DNA from: Candidatus Competibacteraceae bacterium
Lineage (GTDB): Bacteria > Pseudomonadota > Gammaproteobacteria > Competibacterales > Competibacteraceae
Direction of reading: 5' to 3'
DNA: 42,909 bases
Assembly: GCA_007695245.1 (NCBI GenBank)
Contig: REEE01000270.1
Coordinates: 1 to 42,909 of the forward strand
Of this stretch, positions 22,067-28,187 are shown one piece after another; position 1 is the stretch's first letter; each line of letters starts with the position of its first letter. The notes beneath the pieces are model-generated. The model was not told the origin of the DNA. It ran no database searches and worked only from the letters and a program-made list of their open reading frames with translations. The position numbers were made by a program, and so were the translations under genes.

Positions 22067-22560
22067 CTCGGGTGAGTCCAATACAACGGCACCAGACAAT
22101 CCAGGTCTGAATTCCTTTGTTTGTGGCTAAGATTATGAAAAATATACATTAATATCAAAAAAACTGAATAAGCCTTGCATTTTACCCATCATCTGTTAAC
22201 TCTAGGGGTCTGCGGTAAGCTCAAGTCGATCCGAGCGCGCCGCGGAGGGGAGGAGGTTGCGGTCCGCGTGGGCGCTCAGGGTCCTTGGCCGAAACCGTTG
22301 TTCGCAAAAGTGTAATTCGTCAATCCTTGCCTGCCACCAGGCGTCGCCAGGCGCCGTCAAGTAACGCGAGTCCTCATGGTCCGCAATAAGTCAGTTTTCG
22401 TGTGATCTCGGTTTTTATCGGCATGTCTTCTTAGGCGTATCCGAAAAAAGTCAGACGCCCGCCCATCCTGGGGGCGTGTGCTCGCGCGCGGCGGCATCCA
22501 TGGCTCGACGTTCCCCTCAACAAGATCTGGCATTTTTGCCTGCATTGTAAGGAGTGTGTG
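22067..22560 (+). promoter_or_regulatory. Long leader and control region of the betaine-synthesis genes
   Basis: This 494-base non-coding stretch precedes GSMT. It starts AT-rich (22120-22200) and then becomes GC-rich and structured. A tentative promoter is TTGTGG (22121-22126), 16 bases, TATACA (22143-22148). A two-part stem pairs GAGCGC (22233-22238) with GCGCTC (22272-22277) and CGCGGA (22241-22246) with TCCGCG (22263-22268). Its 16-base loop holds GGGGAGGAGG, a strong ribosome-site-like run. GTG at 22268 could open a 15-codon peptide ending at 22315. I recognise no known riboswitch. Osmotic control is inference from the downstream genes. Confidence 0.45.
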
Positions 22561-23406
22561 ATGGAAAAACAGATGACGCAGCATTTCGGGGAAGATCCCA
22601 TCAAGACTCGGGAATCCGATCACTTTCGCGCGGAATACGTTCACGGGTTCGTGGACAAGTGGGACGAGTTGATCGACTGGGAAGCCCGCGCGAAAAGTGA
22701 AGGTTCGTTTTTCATCGATTACCTGAAAAAAATCGGAGCCCGGCGCGTGCTCGACGTCGCAACCGGCACCGGCTTCCACTCGGTGCGCCTGATCGAGGCG
22801 GGCTTCGAAGTGGTCAGCGCCGATGGTAGCCCTGAAATGTTGGCCAAGGCTTTCGAAAACGCGCGCCAGCGCGGTCACGTGCTGCGCACCGCCCATGCGG
22901 ACTGGCGCTTCCTCAACCGCGATATCCTCGGCCGCTACGATGCCGTGATCTGCCTCGGCAATTCCTTCACGCACCTGTTCAAGGAACGTGATCGACGCAA
23001 AGCGTTGGCCGAATTCTACGCCGCGCTTTGCCATAATGGCGTACTCATCATCGACCAGCGCAACTACGACGCTATGCTCGATAGTGAGTTTAAAAGCAAA
23101 CACACTTTTTACTACTGCGGCGAAAATATCAAAGCCGAACCCGCGCATGTGGATGACGGTTTGGCGCGCTTTCAGTATTCCTTCCCCGACGGCAGCCTTT
23201 ATCACCTGAACATGTTTCCGCTGCGCAAGCATTATCTACGCCGTCTGATTCACCAGGCTGGCTTTCAGCGCATCAAAACATTCGGCGACTTTCAGGAAAC
23301 CTATCATCAGGACGATCCAGACTTTTACATTCATATCGCCGAGAAAACCTACGATGCGTCCATTGATTTCGAAGATGTGGACCTGCGGGAAGAAGAGGAG
23401 GTTTAA
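22561..23406 (+). CDS. gsmt: Glycine/sarcosine N-methyltransferase (GSMT)
   Basis: GSMT uses SAM to methylate glycine to sarcosine and then dimethylglycine, the first two steps of de novo glycine betaine synthesis. The 281-aa protein closely resembles the halophile enzymes: FVDKWDELIDWEARAKSEG, the SAM site RVLDVATGTGFHSVRLIEAG (from residue 62), VVSADGSPEMLAKAFEN and VICLGNSFTHLF are visible. QRNYDAMLDSEF and NMFPLRKHYLRRLI also match. The ATG at 22561 lies 6 bases after AAGGAG (22549-22554); a GTG directly before it is less likely. The acidic tail (DVDLREEEEV) is notable. The SDMT gene starts two bases after its stop. Confidence 0.94.
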   Translation: MEKQMTQHFGEDPIKTRESDHFRAEYVHGFVDKWDELIDWEARAKSEGSFFIDYLKKIGARRVLDVATGTGFHSVRLIEAGFEVVSADGSPEMLAKAFENARQRGHVLRTAHADWRFLNRDILGRYDAVICLGNSFTHLFKERDRRKALAEFYAALCHNGVLIIDQRNYDAMLDSEFKSKHTFYYCGENIKAEPAHVDDGLARFQYSFPDGSLYHLNMFPLRKHYLRRLIHQAGFQRIKTFGDFQETYHQDDPDFYIHIAEKTYDASIDFEDVDLREEEEV

Positions 23407-23408
23407 GC

Positions 23409-24236
23409 ATGGCGCAATATAGCGAAGCCGTGGAAACCGCGCGCGATTATTACAACAGCGAGAGTGCTGATAATTTCTACTTTACGGTTTGGGGCGGCGA
23501 GGACATTCACATCGGCCTCTACACCGCTGCGGACGAACCCATTCTCGACGCCAGCCACCGCACCGTCCGGCACATGGCCGCCAAACTCGCCTTGACGCCG
23601 GAGACCCGCGTGCTCGACATCGGCGCGGGTTATGGCGGGGCGGCCCGTTATCTGGCCCGTGAATTCGGCTGCCGCGTCGATTGTTTGAACCTCTCGGAGG
23701 TGCAGAATCGCCGCAACCGCGCCATGAATGAAGCGCAGGGACTGACCGATCGGATCGCGGTCGTCGACGGCGATTTCGAGAACCTGCCGATGGAAACATA
23801 CGAGTATGACATCGTCTGGTCGCAGGACGCCATTTTGCACAGCGGGCGTCGCGCCCGTGTCCTCGCGGAAGTCGATCGGGTCCTGAAACCCGGCGGGACG
23901 TTCATCTTCACCGACCCGATGCAAGCCGATCACGCGTCGCGCGAGGCGCTGCAACCGGTGCTCGACCGCCTTCACCTGGATACGATGGGGTCAACGGGCG
24001 TTTACCGGAAGGCGCTGGGCCAACTCGGCTTCACCGAAGTTGAGTTTGAAGAGATGACTCATCAACTCGTCAATCATTATGGCCGCGTGCATCGGTCCAT
24101 TGAGGAGAATTACGCGGAAGCCGTCAAGACCTGTTCGCAAGATTACATCGAACGCATGAAGACAGGTCTGTTGCATTGGGTTGACCGTGGTAAAGCCGGC
24201 GATCTCGTCTGGGGCATCTTTGTCTTCAGGAAGTAA
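23409..24236 (+). CDS. sdmt: Sarcosine/dimethylglycine N-methyltransferase (SDMT)
   Basis: SDMT performs the later SAM-dependent steps, sarcosine to dimethylglycine to betaine. The 275-aa product has the family N-terminus (ARDYYNSESADNFYFTVWGGEDIHIGLY) and a SAM motif VLDIGAGYGGAARYLAREFG (from residue 68). CLNLSEVQNRRNR, VWSQDAILHS and LKPGGTFIFTDPMQ follow. The ATG at 23409 is preceded by GAGGAGG with 7-base spacing, inside the end of the GSMT gene. The two genes form a tightly coupled pair, as in Ectothiorhodospira-type halophiles. Confidence 0.94.
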   Translation: MAQYSEAVETARDYYNSESADNFYFTVWGGEDIHIGLYTAADEPILDASHRTVRHMAAKLALTPETRVLDIGAGYGGAARYLAREFGCRVDCLNLSEVQNRRNRAMNEAQGLTDRIAVVDGDFENLPMETYEYDIVWSQDAILHSGRRARVLAEVDRVLKPGGTFIFTDPMQADHASREALQPVLDRLHLDTMGSTGVYRKALGQLGFTEVEFEEMTHQLVNHYGRVHRSIEENYAEAVKTCSQDYIERMKTGLLHWVDRGKAGDLVWGIFVFRK

Positions 24237-24335
24237 GCGCGTTCTCGTCCGATGAATCCTCACGCCTGAGGGGTCGGCATCCAGCCGGCCACCTTGACCT
24301 CACTTCTACTTGACCCAGCTTCCAGAGGAGTCCCC

Positions 24336-25268
24336 ATGGCCGCCCTGATTTGCGGTTCCATTGCTTTCGACACCATCATGGTCTTTCACGACCGCTTCAA
24401 AAACCACATCCTGCCGGACAAGGTGCATATCCTCAACGTGTCCTTTCTGGTGCCGGACCTGCGCCGGGAGTTCGGGGGTTGCGCGGGCAACATCGCCTAT
24501 AACCTGAAACTGCTGGGAGGCGAACCCACCGTGATGGCCACGGTGGGTGCCGATTTCGCGCCCTACGCCGACTGGCTGGACCGGCAAGGCATCGATCGCC
24601 GCCACATCAAACAATTAAACGATACTTATACCGGGCAGGCGTTCATCACCACCGATCAGGATGATAACCAGATCACCGCGTTCCACCCCGGCGCGATGAG
24701 CTTCTCGCATTTCAACCATGTGGGAGAGGCCGCCGATGTTCGCGTCGGCATCGTGTCGCCCGACGGGCGCGAGGGCATGATCCAGCACGCCGCCCAGTTC
24801 GCCGAGGCGGGTATTCCGTTCATCTTCGATGTGGGCCAGGGGCTGCCGATGTTTGGCGGAGATGACCTGCTGCGCTTTCTCGATCAGGCCACCTACGCCG
24901 CCTTTAACGATTACGAGGCGCAACTGACCGCCGAACGCACCGGCCTCGCGCTGGAACGGTTGGCCGAACGGGTCGAGGCCCTGATCGTGACCCGGGGCGG
25001 GGAAGGTTCGCGGATTTACACCGCGGGGCAGTGTATCGAGATTCCAGTGGTCGCGCCGGCCGCCGTGGTCGATCCGACCGGCTGCGGCGATGCCTACCGC
25101 GCCGGCTTGCTGTATGGACTGGAACGCGGCATGGACTGGGCAACCACCGGACGCATCGCCGCTTTGCTGGGATCGATCAAGATCGCCAGTCCGGGCACGC
25201 AGAATCATCGCTTTACGGTGGATGAGTTCGCCGACCGGTTCGAGAAGGCCTTCGGCTATCGCTGCTGA
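24336..25268 (+). CDS. PfkB-family kinase, probable adenosine/nucleoside kinase
   Basis: This ribokinase-fold sugar/nucleoside kinase has 310 aa. The first signature is GGCAGNIAYNL (from residue 47). The phosphotransfer motif is DPTGCGDAYRAG (from residue 246), with catalytic base Asp252. DDNQITAF, FDVGQGLPMF, and VEALIVTRGGEGSRIYT with IEIPVV resemble archaeal nucleoside kinases and adenosine kinases more than fructokinases. Placed 99 bases after SDMT, it plausibly phosphorylates adenosine freed from SAH, pulling methylation forward. Specificity is inference. The ATG at 24336 follows AGAGGAG. The HAD gene converges 12 bases away. Confidence 0.82.
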   Translation: MAALICGSIAFDTIMVFHDRFKNHILPDKVHILNVSFLVPDLRREFGGCAGNIAYNLKLLGGEPTVMATVGADFAPYADWLDRQGIDRRHIKQLNDTYTGQAFITTDQDDNQITAFHPGAMSFSHFNHVGEAADVRVGIVSPDGREGMIQHAAQFAEAGIPFIFDVGQGLPMFGGDDLLRFLDQATYAAFNDYEAQLTAERTGLALERLAERVEALIVTRGGEGSRIYTAGQCIEIPVVAPAAVVDPTGCGDAYRAGLLYGLERGMDWATTGRIAALLGSIKIASPGTQNHRFTVDEFADRFEKAFGYRC

Positions 25269-25280
25269 AGGTGTTAAGTT

Positions 25281-25991
25281 TTAAGGGGCAGATGCGGATA
25301 GGAAATCCAACTCCCAAACCGCCAGGACCGCTTCCAGCTCCGCCAGACTGACGATTTCCGCGTCCGCGCGCGGGCCGCCCGGCCACACGCGCCCGGTACG
25401 GTTGACCCACACCGTGCGGAATCCCGCCTCCCGGCCACCTCGCACGTCATGCTCGGGATCGTCGCCGACGTGGACGATCTGTTCGGGGCGCGCCGCCAGG
25501 CGCTGGCGGGCGGCCGCGAAGATCGGCGGGTCGGGCTTGGCCGCGCCGACCTCGATCGCGTTGAGCGAGAAGCTGAAGACGTCGTCCAGGCCGATCAAAC
25601 GCACGTCGGCGTTGCCGTTGGACAACGAGGCCAGGGTGTAGCGTCGAGCCAGCCGTTCCAGGGTCGGCCGTGCGTCCGCGAACAATTCCACGGCGTTGCG
25701 GGCGACGTAGAACACTTCGAAAGCCGTCTCTACATCGAATTCCACGTAATCGGCCCGTCGCGCCGCCAGCCACAACGCCTCCTTGCGGAGCAGGGTGCGA
25801 TCGTGCGCGATTTCAGGGCGCGCAACGACCACTTCTTCCGATAGATCCCGCAGTTCCAGCGCCGTGAATTGCTCCGAAATGCGCGGGTAGCGCGCCGCCA
25901 GCCAGTCGTGCAGCAACTGTTCGGCGCGGACCACCACCGGCCAAACATCCCAGAGCGTGTCGTCCAGATCGAAGGTGATGGCTTTGATCAT
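25281..25991 (-). CDS. HAD-superfamily phosphatase (YigB-like)
   Basis: This is a haloacid-dehalogenase-type phosphatase of 236 aa. The nucleophile motif is FDLDDTLWD (Asp8 and Asp10), motif II is SLSNGN, the Lys lies in GAAKPDP, and motif IV is HVGDDPEHDVRGGREAG. Overall it resembles YigB, which dephosphorylates riboflavin-pathway intermediates and FMN, but substrates of this family are broad. Its ATG (25991) overlaps the metZ stop by one base (TGATG), so translation is probably coupled. It therefore falls under the SAM-II leader of metZ. Confidence 0.85.
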   Translation of the reverse strand: MIKAITFDLDDTLWDVWPVVVRAEQLLHDWLAARYPRISEQFTALELRDLSEEVVVARPEIAHDRTLLRKEALWLAARRADYVEFDVETAFEVFYVARNAVELFADARPTLERLARRYTLASLSNGNADVRLIGLDDVFSFSLNAIEVGAAKPDPPIFAAARQRLAARPEQIVHVGDDPEHDVRGGREAGFRTVWVNRTGRVWPGGPRADAEIVSLAELEAVLAVWELDFLSASAP

Positions 25992-27229
25992 CAAAAACTC
26001 GCCTCTGCCCCGACGATGGAGAAGGATTGAGGGTGGGGGGAGAGTTGGCGCAGGCCGCGCTCCAAATCCCGCTGGATATCAGCCACGTCTTCCAATCCCA
26101 CTGAAATCCGCACCAACCCCTCACGAATGCCGGCTCGTTCGCGTTCCTGGGGAGTCAGCCGGCCGTGCGTGGTGGTGGCGGGATGGGTGATCGTGCTTTT
26201 GGCGTCGCCCAGATTGGCGGTGATCGAGATCAGCCGGGTGGCGTCGATCAGGCTCCAGGCCGCCGGCTGGCCGCCGCGCAGTTCGAAGGAGACGATGCCG
26301 CCGAAGCCGGTCTGTTGCCGCTTCGCCAGTTCGTGCTGCGGATGCGAGGGGAGTCCAGGGTAATAGACCCGCGCCACCGCCGGTTGGACTTCCAGCCAGC
26401 GAGCCAGTTGCAGCGCCGCCTCGCTGTGGGCGCGCATCCGCAGGCTCAGGGTTTCCAAGCCCTTGAGGAAGACCCAGGCGTTGAATGGGCTGAGGGTGGG
26501 ACCGGCGGTGCGCAGGAAGCTGAAGATATCGACACCGACCCGCTGCCGATCCCCCACCACCGCCCCGCCCACGCAGCGACCCTGCCCGTCCAGGTACTTG
26601 GTGCCGGAATGAATCACCAAATCCGCGCCTAATTTGAAGGGTTGTTGCAGGGCGGGGGTGCAGAAACAGTTATCCACCACCAGCAGAATATCGTGGGCGT
26701 GCGCCAGGTCGGCCAGCGTCTGAATGTCAGCCAGTTCCATCAGGGGATTGGACGGGGTTTCCAGATAGAACAACCGGGTTTCCGGACGGATGGCCGCTTC
26801 CCAGGCGGCCGGGTCGGATAGTGGCACATAGGTGGTATCGACGCCGAACTTGCTGAGATATTGATTGAATAGAGAAATCGTGGTGCCGAACACCCCGCTG
26901 GCCGAGACGAGGTGGTCACCGCTTTTCAACAACGTCATGCAGGTGGCCAGGATCGCCGCCATGCCGGACCCGGTGGCGATGCAGGACTCGCCGCCTTCCA
27001 ACGCCGCCAGCCGGTCCTGAAACATGCGCACGGTCGGATTGGTAAAGCGGGAATAAATGTTGCCCGTGCCGGTGCTGAAGCGGGCGGCGGCTTCGGCGGC
27101 GTTGGCGAATACGAAGCTGGAGGTGAGAAAAATCGGTTCGGCGTGTTCGCCTTCGTGAGTGCGCGTCTGACCGGCGCGCACCGCCCGGCTGGCGAAGCCG
27201 AGTTCGGGATGGTGATCAAGGTCGAGCAT
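25991..27229 (-). CDS. metZ: O-succinylhomoserine sulfhydrylase MetZ
   Basis: MetZ is a PLP enzyme that makes homocysteine directly from O-succinylhomoserine and sulfide, bypassing cystathionine. The 412-aa protein belongs to the Cys/Met metabolism family: YSRFTNPTVRMFQDRLAALEG, GSGMAAI and YLETPSNPLMELADI are visible, with the PLP lysine Lys211 in SGTKYLDGQGR. A SAM-II riboswitch upstream supports a methionine role over a cystathionine enzyme. The ATG at 27229 follows GGAG at 8 bases; a GTG at 27244 lacks a site. The product would supply methionine for the neighbouring SAM-consuming betaine genes. Confidence 0.92.
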   Translation of the reverse strand: MLDLDHHPELGFASRAVRAGQTRTHEGEHAEPIFLTSSFVFANAAEAAARFSTGTGNIYSRFTNPTVRMFQDRLAALEGGESCIATGSGMAAILATCMTLLKSGDHLVSASGVFGTTISLFNQYLSKFGVDTTYVPLSDPAAWEAAIRPETRLFYLETPSNPLMELADIQTLADLAHAHDILLVVDNCFCTPALQQPFKLGADLVIHSGTKYLDGQGRCVGGAVVGDRQRVGVDIFSFLRTAGPTLSPFNAWVFLKGLETLSLRMRAHSEAALQLARWLEVQPAVARVYYPGLPSHPQHELAKRQQTGFGGIVSFELRGGQPAAWSLIDATRLISITANLGDAKSTITHPATTTHGRLTPQERERAGIREGLVRISVGLEDVADIQRDLERGLRQLSPHPQSFSIVGAEASF

Positions 27230-27299
27230 GGCTGGGGTCTCCACGATGGATGGAACGGGTCATCGTCGCGGAGCCCGGCGCCGTCGGCGGGCGGGCATG

Positions 27300-27334
27300 A
27301 AAAAACCCGCTCGATGGGACGCCCCAGGCAGGTT
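27300..27334 (-). terminator. Intrinsic terminator in the metZ leader (attenuator)
   Basis: On the minus strand, AACCTGC (27334-27328) pairs with GCGGGTT (27310-27304) with one G-U. An inner TGGG/CCCA helix sits on top, and the stem runs into six T (27305-27300). It lies between the riboswitch and the metZ start. A competing CTCGA/TCGAG pairing (27338-27334 with 27313-27309) overlaps the terminator arms. Confidence 0.72.
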
Positions 27335-27337
27335 CGA

Positions 27338-27400
27338 GACCCGCTTTAGCGAAATTTGTTAAGCGCCCGCAAGCTGGAGGACTCAAATCGGCGCTGGGGG
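27338..27400 (-). promoter_or_regulatory. SAM-II (metA/metZ-type) riboswitch
   Basis: Read on the minus strand, stem P1 is AGCGCC (27395-27390) with GGCGCT (27367-27362), a perfect 6 bp. Directly after the first arm comes GATTTGA. GCTTGCG precedes the second arm, TTAACAAATTTC follows it, then GCTAAAGC (27350-27343). This order (P1, GATTTGA, CTTGC, P1', TTAA, GCTAAA) is the SAM-II signature. The predicted transcript start is 3-4 bases upstream of P1, and the next gene is metZ, a classic SAM-II target. Confidence 0.88.
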
Positions 27401-27405
27401 TAAAG

Positions 27406-27433
27406 CTTAGAGCGTTTGTCGGCATTCTGTCAA
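27406..27433 (-). promoter_or_regulatory. Sigma70-type promoter of metZ
   Basis: On the minus strand a perfect TTGACA (27433-27428) lies 16 bases upstream of TCTAAG (27411-27406). The expected start near 27399 places the riboswitch at the very 5' end of the transcript. Confidence 0.7.
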
Positions 27434-27548
27434 AAACCGCGGTTTCAGGTCGCAATACGGGTGCCATACCGGCGGGTTCTCCAGCGTCGGGGTCGACTGA
27501 CTCGGCCGCGCGGATGCGTTCCGACCGGCTATCCGTTATGCTGCGTGA

Positions 27549-28187
27549 ATGAACGAACCTGCTCCCAACGCCCTTATCGCCCGCCGCTTCCGAGGCTTTC
27601 TGCCGGTCATCGTGGATGTCGAGACCGGCGGCGTCAACGCCCAGACCGACGCCCTGCTGGAAATCGCCGCCGTGGTCGTGCGCATGGACTGGCGGGGCGA
27701 ACTGCGTCCCGCCGGCACGCTGGCCCATCACGTGCAACCGTTCCCCGGCGCGCGGCTGGACCCGGCCTCCATGGCGGTGAACGGCATCGACCCCGATCAC
27801 CCGTTCCGCTTCGCCGTTCCAGAAGACGAAGCGTTGGGTGCCATCTTTCAGGAAGTGCGTCGGGAAGTGCGCGACGCCGGCTGCACCCGCGCGGTGCTGG
27901 TCGGTCACAATGCCTTCTTCGATCTAGCGTTTCTAAACGCGGCGGCGGCCCGCGCCCGGATCAAGCGCAATCCCTTTCATCCGTTCAGCAGTTTCGATAC
28001 GGTGTCTCTGGCTGGATTGGCCTACGGGCAGACGGTGTTGTCCCGGGCGCTGCGCGCGGCGGGGATTCCCTGGGACGAACGCGAGGCGCATTCGGCCATT
28101 TACGACGCCGAGCGCACGGCGGAACTGTTCTGCCGGATCGTCAACCGCTGGAAAGACCTCGGCGGCTGGACGCCGGCGGACGATTAA
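27549..28187 (+). CDS. rnt: Ribonuclease T
   Basis: RNase T is a DEDD-family 3'-5' exoribonuclease that trims tRNA and other stable RNA ends. The 212-aa protein has IVDVETGG (Asp23, Glu25), VGHNAFFD (Asp125), FDTVSLAGLAYGQTVLSRAL (Asp150) and HSAIYDAERT (His181, Asp186). That is the complete DEDDh catalytic set. The ATG at 27549 gives the family start; no strong ribosome site is seen. It is divergent from metZ. Its TAA overlaps the stop of the convergent ygfZ gene. Confidence 0.93.
   Translation: MNEPAPNALIARRFRGFLPVIVDVETGGVNAQTDALLEIAAVVVRMDWRGELRPAGTLAHHVQPFPGARLDPASMAVNGIDPDHPFRFAVPEDEALGAIFQEVRREVRDAGCTRAVLVGHNAFFDLAFLNAAAARARIKRNPFHPFSSFDTVSLAGLAYGQTVLSRALRAAGIPWDEREAHSAIYDAERTAELFCRIVNRWKDLGGWTPADD

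Follow-up and report, generated by a model that had tools for sequence, protein, structure and literature searches.

The leader of metZ in the window (the whole 42,909-nt stretch of Candidatus Competibacteraceae DNA analysed here) carries what is, judged by its sequence, a genuine SAM-II type riboswitch aptamer, of a gammaproteobacterial subtype with a short P2a and a GC-rich P1 that falls just under the Rfam threshold. With a probability of about 0.85, we read it as a predicted OFF switch acting on transcription of metZ and of the HAD-family gene coupled to it. This reading builds on the anatomy of the element, its homology to SAM-II, covariation of P1, and a promoter, terminator, and gene context that are conserved, each of which was observed in this analysis.

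A SAM-II element just below the Rfam cut-off

The RF00521 model (SAM_alpha, Rfam) gave a full-length match on the minus strand at 27404-27324 (model positions 1-79) of 35.0 bits, 1 bit short of the curated gathering cut-off of 36. The first-pass annotation had named a SAM-II riboswitch here and an RF00521 covariance scan as its check, and the match is indeed significant, with E-values of 1.8e-6 for the 331 nt searched and 5.2e-6 for the whole 4.08 Mb genome. An Rfam scan of the window at gathering cut-offs reported two tRNAs only and no SAM-II, because the score is 1 bit too low; read at that cut-off alone, the scan would have led to the element being wrongly dismissed. A separate covariance model, R1, was built from an alignment (A1) of 69 elements from the gammaproteobacterial class, none of them from the family of the window. 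It matched 27397-27333 as a single copy with 67.4 bits (E 3.3e-14, genome-wide), while the runner-up place in the genome scored 14.9 bits. Together, the two genome-wide E-values place the metZ leader element far above chance. Its assignment to SAM-II draws on the full-length RF00521 match, P1 covariation, the P2 pseudoknot, the core nucleotides, and the gene position with promoter and expression platform.

Several other matches were taken as chance: a second genomic RF00521 match (C10, 23 bits) with no R1 counterpart, a leader match to RF01726 (SAM-II long loop; 13.7 bits, E 6.1) too weak for membership in that family, and a glutamine riboswitch match at 27513-27557 (16 bits, E 0.73). SAM-V resembles SAM-II in its nearly identical pocket and fold and has a 2-bp P2a (PMC6061858), but unlike the window element it is translational and lies close to the start codon. 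A SAM-V identity was rejected, as the aptamer ends more than 100 nt from the ATG at 27229 with a terminator in between, and the SAM-V model gave no window match up to E 10.

The features of the locus, in the order of transcription, are as follows.

27428-27433, minus strand: -35 box TTGACA, from the sequence; kept in most family members
27404-27409, minus strand: -10 box TAAGCT after an 18-nt spacer, from the sequence; kept in most family members
27390-27395, minus strand: 5' strand of P1, AGCGCC, pairing with 27367-27362; P1 covaries in A1
27383-27389, minus strand: L1 core GATTTGA, third strand of the triplex by homology; nearly invariant in the 69 class elements
27369-27377, minus strand: 5' strand of P2, CC-A-GC-TTGC; TTGC pairs with GC-T-AA (invariant in A1) and CC can pair with GG at 27342-27341
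27374-27369, minus strand: core segment GCTTGC, from the sequence
27362-27367, minus strand: 3' strand of P1, GGCGCT, by covariation in A1
27362-27359, minus strand: TTAA, from the sequence
27341-27350, minus strand: 3' strand of P2, GCTAAAGCGG; GCTAAA (27350-27345) is invariant in A1
27339-27344, minus strand: predicted antiterminator 5' arm GCGGGT, overlapping the P2 3' strand; pairs with 27333-27328 in a leader shortened before the terminator 3' arm
27328-27333, minus strand: predicted shared arm ACCTGC (antiterminator 3' arm and terminator 5' arm), from folds; complementarity conserved across the class
27300-27333, minus strand: predicted intrinsic terminator ACCTGC..GCGGGT with inner TGGG/CCCA, -12.8 kcal/mol; terminator-like hairpins occur class-wide
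27310-27300, minus strand: second GCGGGT and six T (T run 27305-27300), from the sequence
27238-27242, minus strand: putative Shine-Dalgarno sequence GGAGA
25991-27229, minus strand: metZ, O-succinylhomoserine sulfhydrylase, ATG at 27229; NF006003 693 bits and TIGR01325 573 bits, both over cut-off
25281-25991, minus strand: HAD-family hydrolase (YigB-like), start ATG overlapping the metZ stop (TGATG)

Much of the first-pass annotation agrees with this map: its SAM-II segments follow one another in the order it gave, all on the minus strand at 27395-27345, behind the TTGACA promoter it had pointed out and ahead of metZ with its ATG at 27229. The identity of metZ, its coupling to the HAD gene through the TGATG overlap, and the gammaproteobacterial setting likewise held.

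Aptamer anatomy and ligand

All six P1 pairs form in the window element. Across A1 (n = 69), two-sided changes occur at 5 of the 6 P1 pairs with 97.3% of cells paired, and the whole structure has 49 two-sided cells, where shuffles have 16 and sliding the structure gives 12 at most. The core segments GAUUUGA, CUUGC, and GCUAAA are all intact in the window and are kept in nearly all A1 elements. P2b (UUGC with GC-U-AA) is present in the window and invariant in 69/69 A1 elements, and therefore yields no covariation evidence. P2a is short, with a C-G pair followed by UA, UG, CG, AU, or GC and some covariation at one pair in A1; it spans about 2 bp in gamma-type elements, and a 5-bp P2a is reported for 60% of SAM-II (PMC6061858).

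With the RF00521 SAM-II riboswitches of Agrobacterium metA and Sinorhizobium metA/metZ, the window element shares P1, the pseudoknot, and the GAUUUGA/CUUGC/GCUAAA core, as well as a promoter just before P1, a terminator, and methionine genes (PMC1273637, PMC9373788). It differs from them in P1 (GCGCC/GGCGC instead of CGUGG/CCACG), in its short P2a where those have a GGCC helix, and in its RF00521 score (35 vs. 50-88 bits). The short P2a and the GCGCC form of P1 are probably why gamma-type elements score low with RF00521.

The genes downstream place the element in a methionine/SAM regulon. A MetZ-like gene follows in 93 of 126 loci, five of these 93 being Cys/Met enzymes of only 36-41% identity, and other targets are metK (a cluster of 11 loci), metF (first gene in 5), metN, and metW. 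The short P2a and divergent P1 could mean that the same fold and switch type serve a ligand or selectivity unlike that of alphaproteobacterial SAM-II, for example with weaker SAH discrimination, and the SAM/SAH class consists of pseudoknot aptamers able to accept both ligands (PMC7367207). We consider this unlikely, given that the core is maintained in nearly all elements and that the targets are genes of methionine and SAM synthesis, not of SAH recycling. For the proposed OFF switch, SAM is the presumed ligand.

Expression platform and proposed mechanism

In most family members, TTGACA is followed by TAAGCT after 17-18 nt upstream of the aptamer. The promoter stops some 8 nt short of P1, and transcription would start a few nucleotides before P1. 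A consensus scan, too strict for this leader, found neither promoter nor terminator, because the -10 box TAAGCT is a weak one and the terminator has an interrupted stem. Relatives conserve both elements. Since the upstream rnt gene is divergent, the terminator can serve only transcripts reading towards metZ.

Predicted folds give two alternative structures. A leader ending before the terminator 3' arm folds as the antiterminator (-6.9 kcal/mol, six pairs), while the full leader folds as the terminator (-12.8 kcal/mol); with L1/P2 masked, the terminator persists. Across the class, a terminator-like hairpin lies within 150 nt downstream of the element in 102 of 125 loci, whereas control windows have one in 41 of 362 cases. 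The stretch preceding the terminator arm is complementary to the aptamer 3' strand over a mean of 7.5 nt (4.9 in shuffles). In many relatives outside the family, CUUUAGC lies opposite GCUAAAG in the predicted antiterminator, directly linking the pseudoknot strand to it. In most of the window's family this part is gone, and the antiterminator is reduced to GCGGGU/ACCUGC.

In the proposed mechanism, the RNA would start a few nucleotides upstream of P1. With little SAM present, the GCGGGU next to the pseudoknot strand would pair with ACCUGC as an antiterminator, and polymerase would read into metZ. Plentiful SAM would bind the L1/P2 pocket and hold the strand GCUAAAGCGG in the pseudoknot. The freed ACCUGC could then pair with the second GCGGGU, transcription would stop at the U run, and metZ and the coupled HAD gene would be switched off. 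Switching is thus envisaged as occurring during transcription. For Sinorhizobium metZ SAM-II, the predicted terminated RNA increases at high SAM (PMC9373788).

Alternatively, the terminator may be constitutive and the aptamer may act mainly on translation or through release of a short RNA. The predicted minimum free energy fold of the full-length leader already contains the terminator, and at S. meliloti metA a SAM-II switch stands together with a terminator for which no SAM response is predicted (PMC9373788). However, more than 100 nt and the terminator itself separate the aptamer from the start codon, and the complementarity between aptamer strand and terminator arm is conserved, so we judge this arrangement quite improbable. 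Points that count against the OFF-switch reading are the RF00521 score of 35.0 against a cut-off of 36, a P2a of only about 2 bp, an antiterminator of six pairs, and the dispensability of the switch.

Gene neighbourhood

Family members usually have the order purF-[promoter-switch]-metZ-HAD, and an SDR gene runs convergently to it. The HAD gene follows metZ in 7 of 9 relatives compared, at varying distance. In the window, the divergent rnt gene occupies the place of purF, and the switch stayed with metZ. Between the SDR and HAD genes, the plus strand at 22558-25268 encodes glycine/sarcosine and sarcosine/dimethylglycine methyltransferases and a pfkB-type sugar/nucleoside kinase, a cassette found at this place in this genome alone among the relatives compared. 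The betaine synthesis cassette is therefore a local insertion, convergent with metZ-HAD. The first-pass annotation had attached significance to the adjacency of betaine genes, but because the cassette is missing here in the relatives compared and faces the other way, regulatory coupling to these genes by neighbourhood was rejected.

Distribution in the family and class

Among 39 family genomes, 16 contain full-length RF00521 copies, and in six of these the copy exceeds the cut-off (36.2-39.1 bits). In 14 relatives, a MetZ homologue (65-88% identity) lies directly downstream of the switch, in some cases cut by the contig end. In thirteen family genomes metZ was matched but no switch was detected, which indicates that the switch is dispensable; some genera lack it, and in these metZ follows purF across a short gap. 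The purF-metZ pair, with the switch between or absent, recurs across named gammaproteobacteria. The wide distribution suggests that the missing switch in some family genera reflects loss rather than a failure to gain it. In G005 (L318 and L319), an aptamer with a mutated core is stranded behind purF (L318:3952-4015, minus strand), with metZ-HAD on another contig without an aptamer; at 49.9 bits with R1 the stranded aptamer is the lowest-scoring copy of the family, in keeping with the switch reading.

In an evenly drawn sample of 369 gammaproteobacterial genomes, RF00521 matched 112 at E 5e-4 or better, with only 30 passing the cut-off. R1 finds the element in 183 of the 369 (about half), a figure to be read as a prevalence estimate and not an independent test, since R1 was trained partly on sampled genomes. 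Among 80 named MetZ loci, the core pattern occurs in 27, compared with 0 of 80 reversed controls. R1 recovers these 27 loci with full matches ahead of metZ and adds a second copy in L040. These loci include Acidiferrobacterales (L030), Ectothiorhodospiraceae (L032), 'Muproteobacteria' (L040, L096), Nevskia (L070), Sinimarinibacterium (L093), and Novimethylophilus (L105). In two Solimonas genomes the element upstream of metZ is cut down to its first half (L034:5840-5870, L046:5838-5868; 21-22 bits with R1); these are perhaps decayed copies.

Occurrence beyond the Alphaproteobacteria is already published, though its extent was underestimated: Coxiella and Bordetella were listed by Corbino 2005 (PMC1273637), gammaproteobacterial cases by Barrick & Breaker 2007 (PMC2258182), and Meyer 2009 describes SAM-II as most common in Alpha-, Beta-, and Gammaproteobacteria (PMC2704228). 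Some alphaproteobacterial genomes of a phylum sample carry gamma-type copies (L307-L311), one of which, G410, also has alpha-type copies.

The first-pass annotation had suggested either transfer or a wider range. The wider range is real, if not new. A recent horizontal gain from Alphaproteobacteria, which would fit the patchy occurrence in the family (16/39 genomes) and the similar gamma-type copies in some alphaproteobacterial genomes, is very unlikely. The elements have their own gamma-type consensus, alpha-type elements differ in P1 and reach 38-48 bits with R1 where the window element reaches 67, and the position between purF and metZ is conserved in relatives, 14 of which have metZ downstream. 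The best 80 MetZ records bear gammaproteobacterial, betaproteobacterial, or unspecific titles, with one exception ('Phycisphaerales' bin) and none alphaproteobacterial; the closest named among them are Acidiferrobacterales, Ectothiorhodospiraceae, and gammaproteobacterial bins. The switch occurs in about half of the sampled genomes of the class, mostly below the Rfam threshold, and is hence not a rare transfer. Chance resemblance or a functionless remnant, as the sub-cut-off score and the decayed G005 copy might hint, is practically dismissed by the R1 E-value of 3.3e-14, the intact core segments, and the empty reversed controls.

Related elements and variants

In Leyn 2014 (PMC4239095), an Rfam profile scan places SAM_alpha in Rhizobiales and Rhodobacterales only, and a 'novel' betaproteobacterial metXZ element upstream of metX/metZ is described there without being named SAM-II. 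By that description, it resembles the window element in a pseudoknot formed by regions 1-4 and 2-6 and in a terminator with antiterminator. Novimethylophilus metZ is a clear R1 match (75.8 bits). RF02424 (Bp2_287 Burkholderia sRNA), whose authors proposed a cis element of methionine genes (PMC3521395), is in L292 the reverse complement of the SAM-II element and terminator upstream of metZ; its matches (L292:1823-1999 and L293:1768-1999, plus strand) run opposite to the SAM-II element and terminator in the metZ leader. Its strand in Rfam is probably wrong. RF02424 differs from the window element in being modelled on the opposite strand and in an extra small hairpin before GCUAAA, and it gave no match to the window leader. 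We infer that the metXZ element, compared by its published description, Bp2_287, and SAM-II are probably the same element.

Variant forms were also observed. A SAM-II-like variant with GAGTTAA for GATTTGA, together with CAACTTGC and GCTAAAGCG, occurs in L294-L302 (e.g. L294:1896-1965, minus strand), L324, and L326; it lies upstream of metK where tested, and an Rfam scan of three examples gave no family match at that place with E up to 0.05. Tandem arrangements in L322, L323, L327 (G150), and G274 place a second SAM-II-like core (GATTTAA, CAACTTGC, GCTAAAGCG) about 110 nt after a terminator-type SAM-II, with 9 to 10 matches in total in G274. Further SAM-II-like cores (GATTTAA or GATTTAT, ACTTGC, GCTAAAGCG) in L303-L306 have no recognisable methionine gene within the next 500 nt.

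We somewhat favour the view that the window element belongs to a large terminating SAM-II branch, which would be a standard sensor for metZ (also metK, metF, and metN) in about half of gammaproteobacterial lineages. This branch would be split in the records as 'SAM_alpha', 'metXZ element', and misoriented 'Bp2_287 sRNA', and would include a GAGUUAA/GAUUUAA form, located in front of metK or in tandem pairs, that may have a different ligand selectivity.

Discussion

With its present model and cut-off, Rfam overlooks most copies of the element in a bacterial class that ranks among the largest. The finding may also bring together two elements that were each reported as new. The wider interest of the finding lies in how common the gamma subtype is. 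The family offers natural comparisons, since its members share a gene order whether or not they have the switch, and in one genome the aptamer is decaying after metZ moved away. For metZ, the element would provide a predicted SAM feedback route outside the Rhizobiales and Rhodobacterales, the SAM_alpha range given in Leyn 2014.
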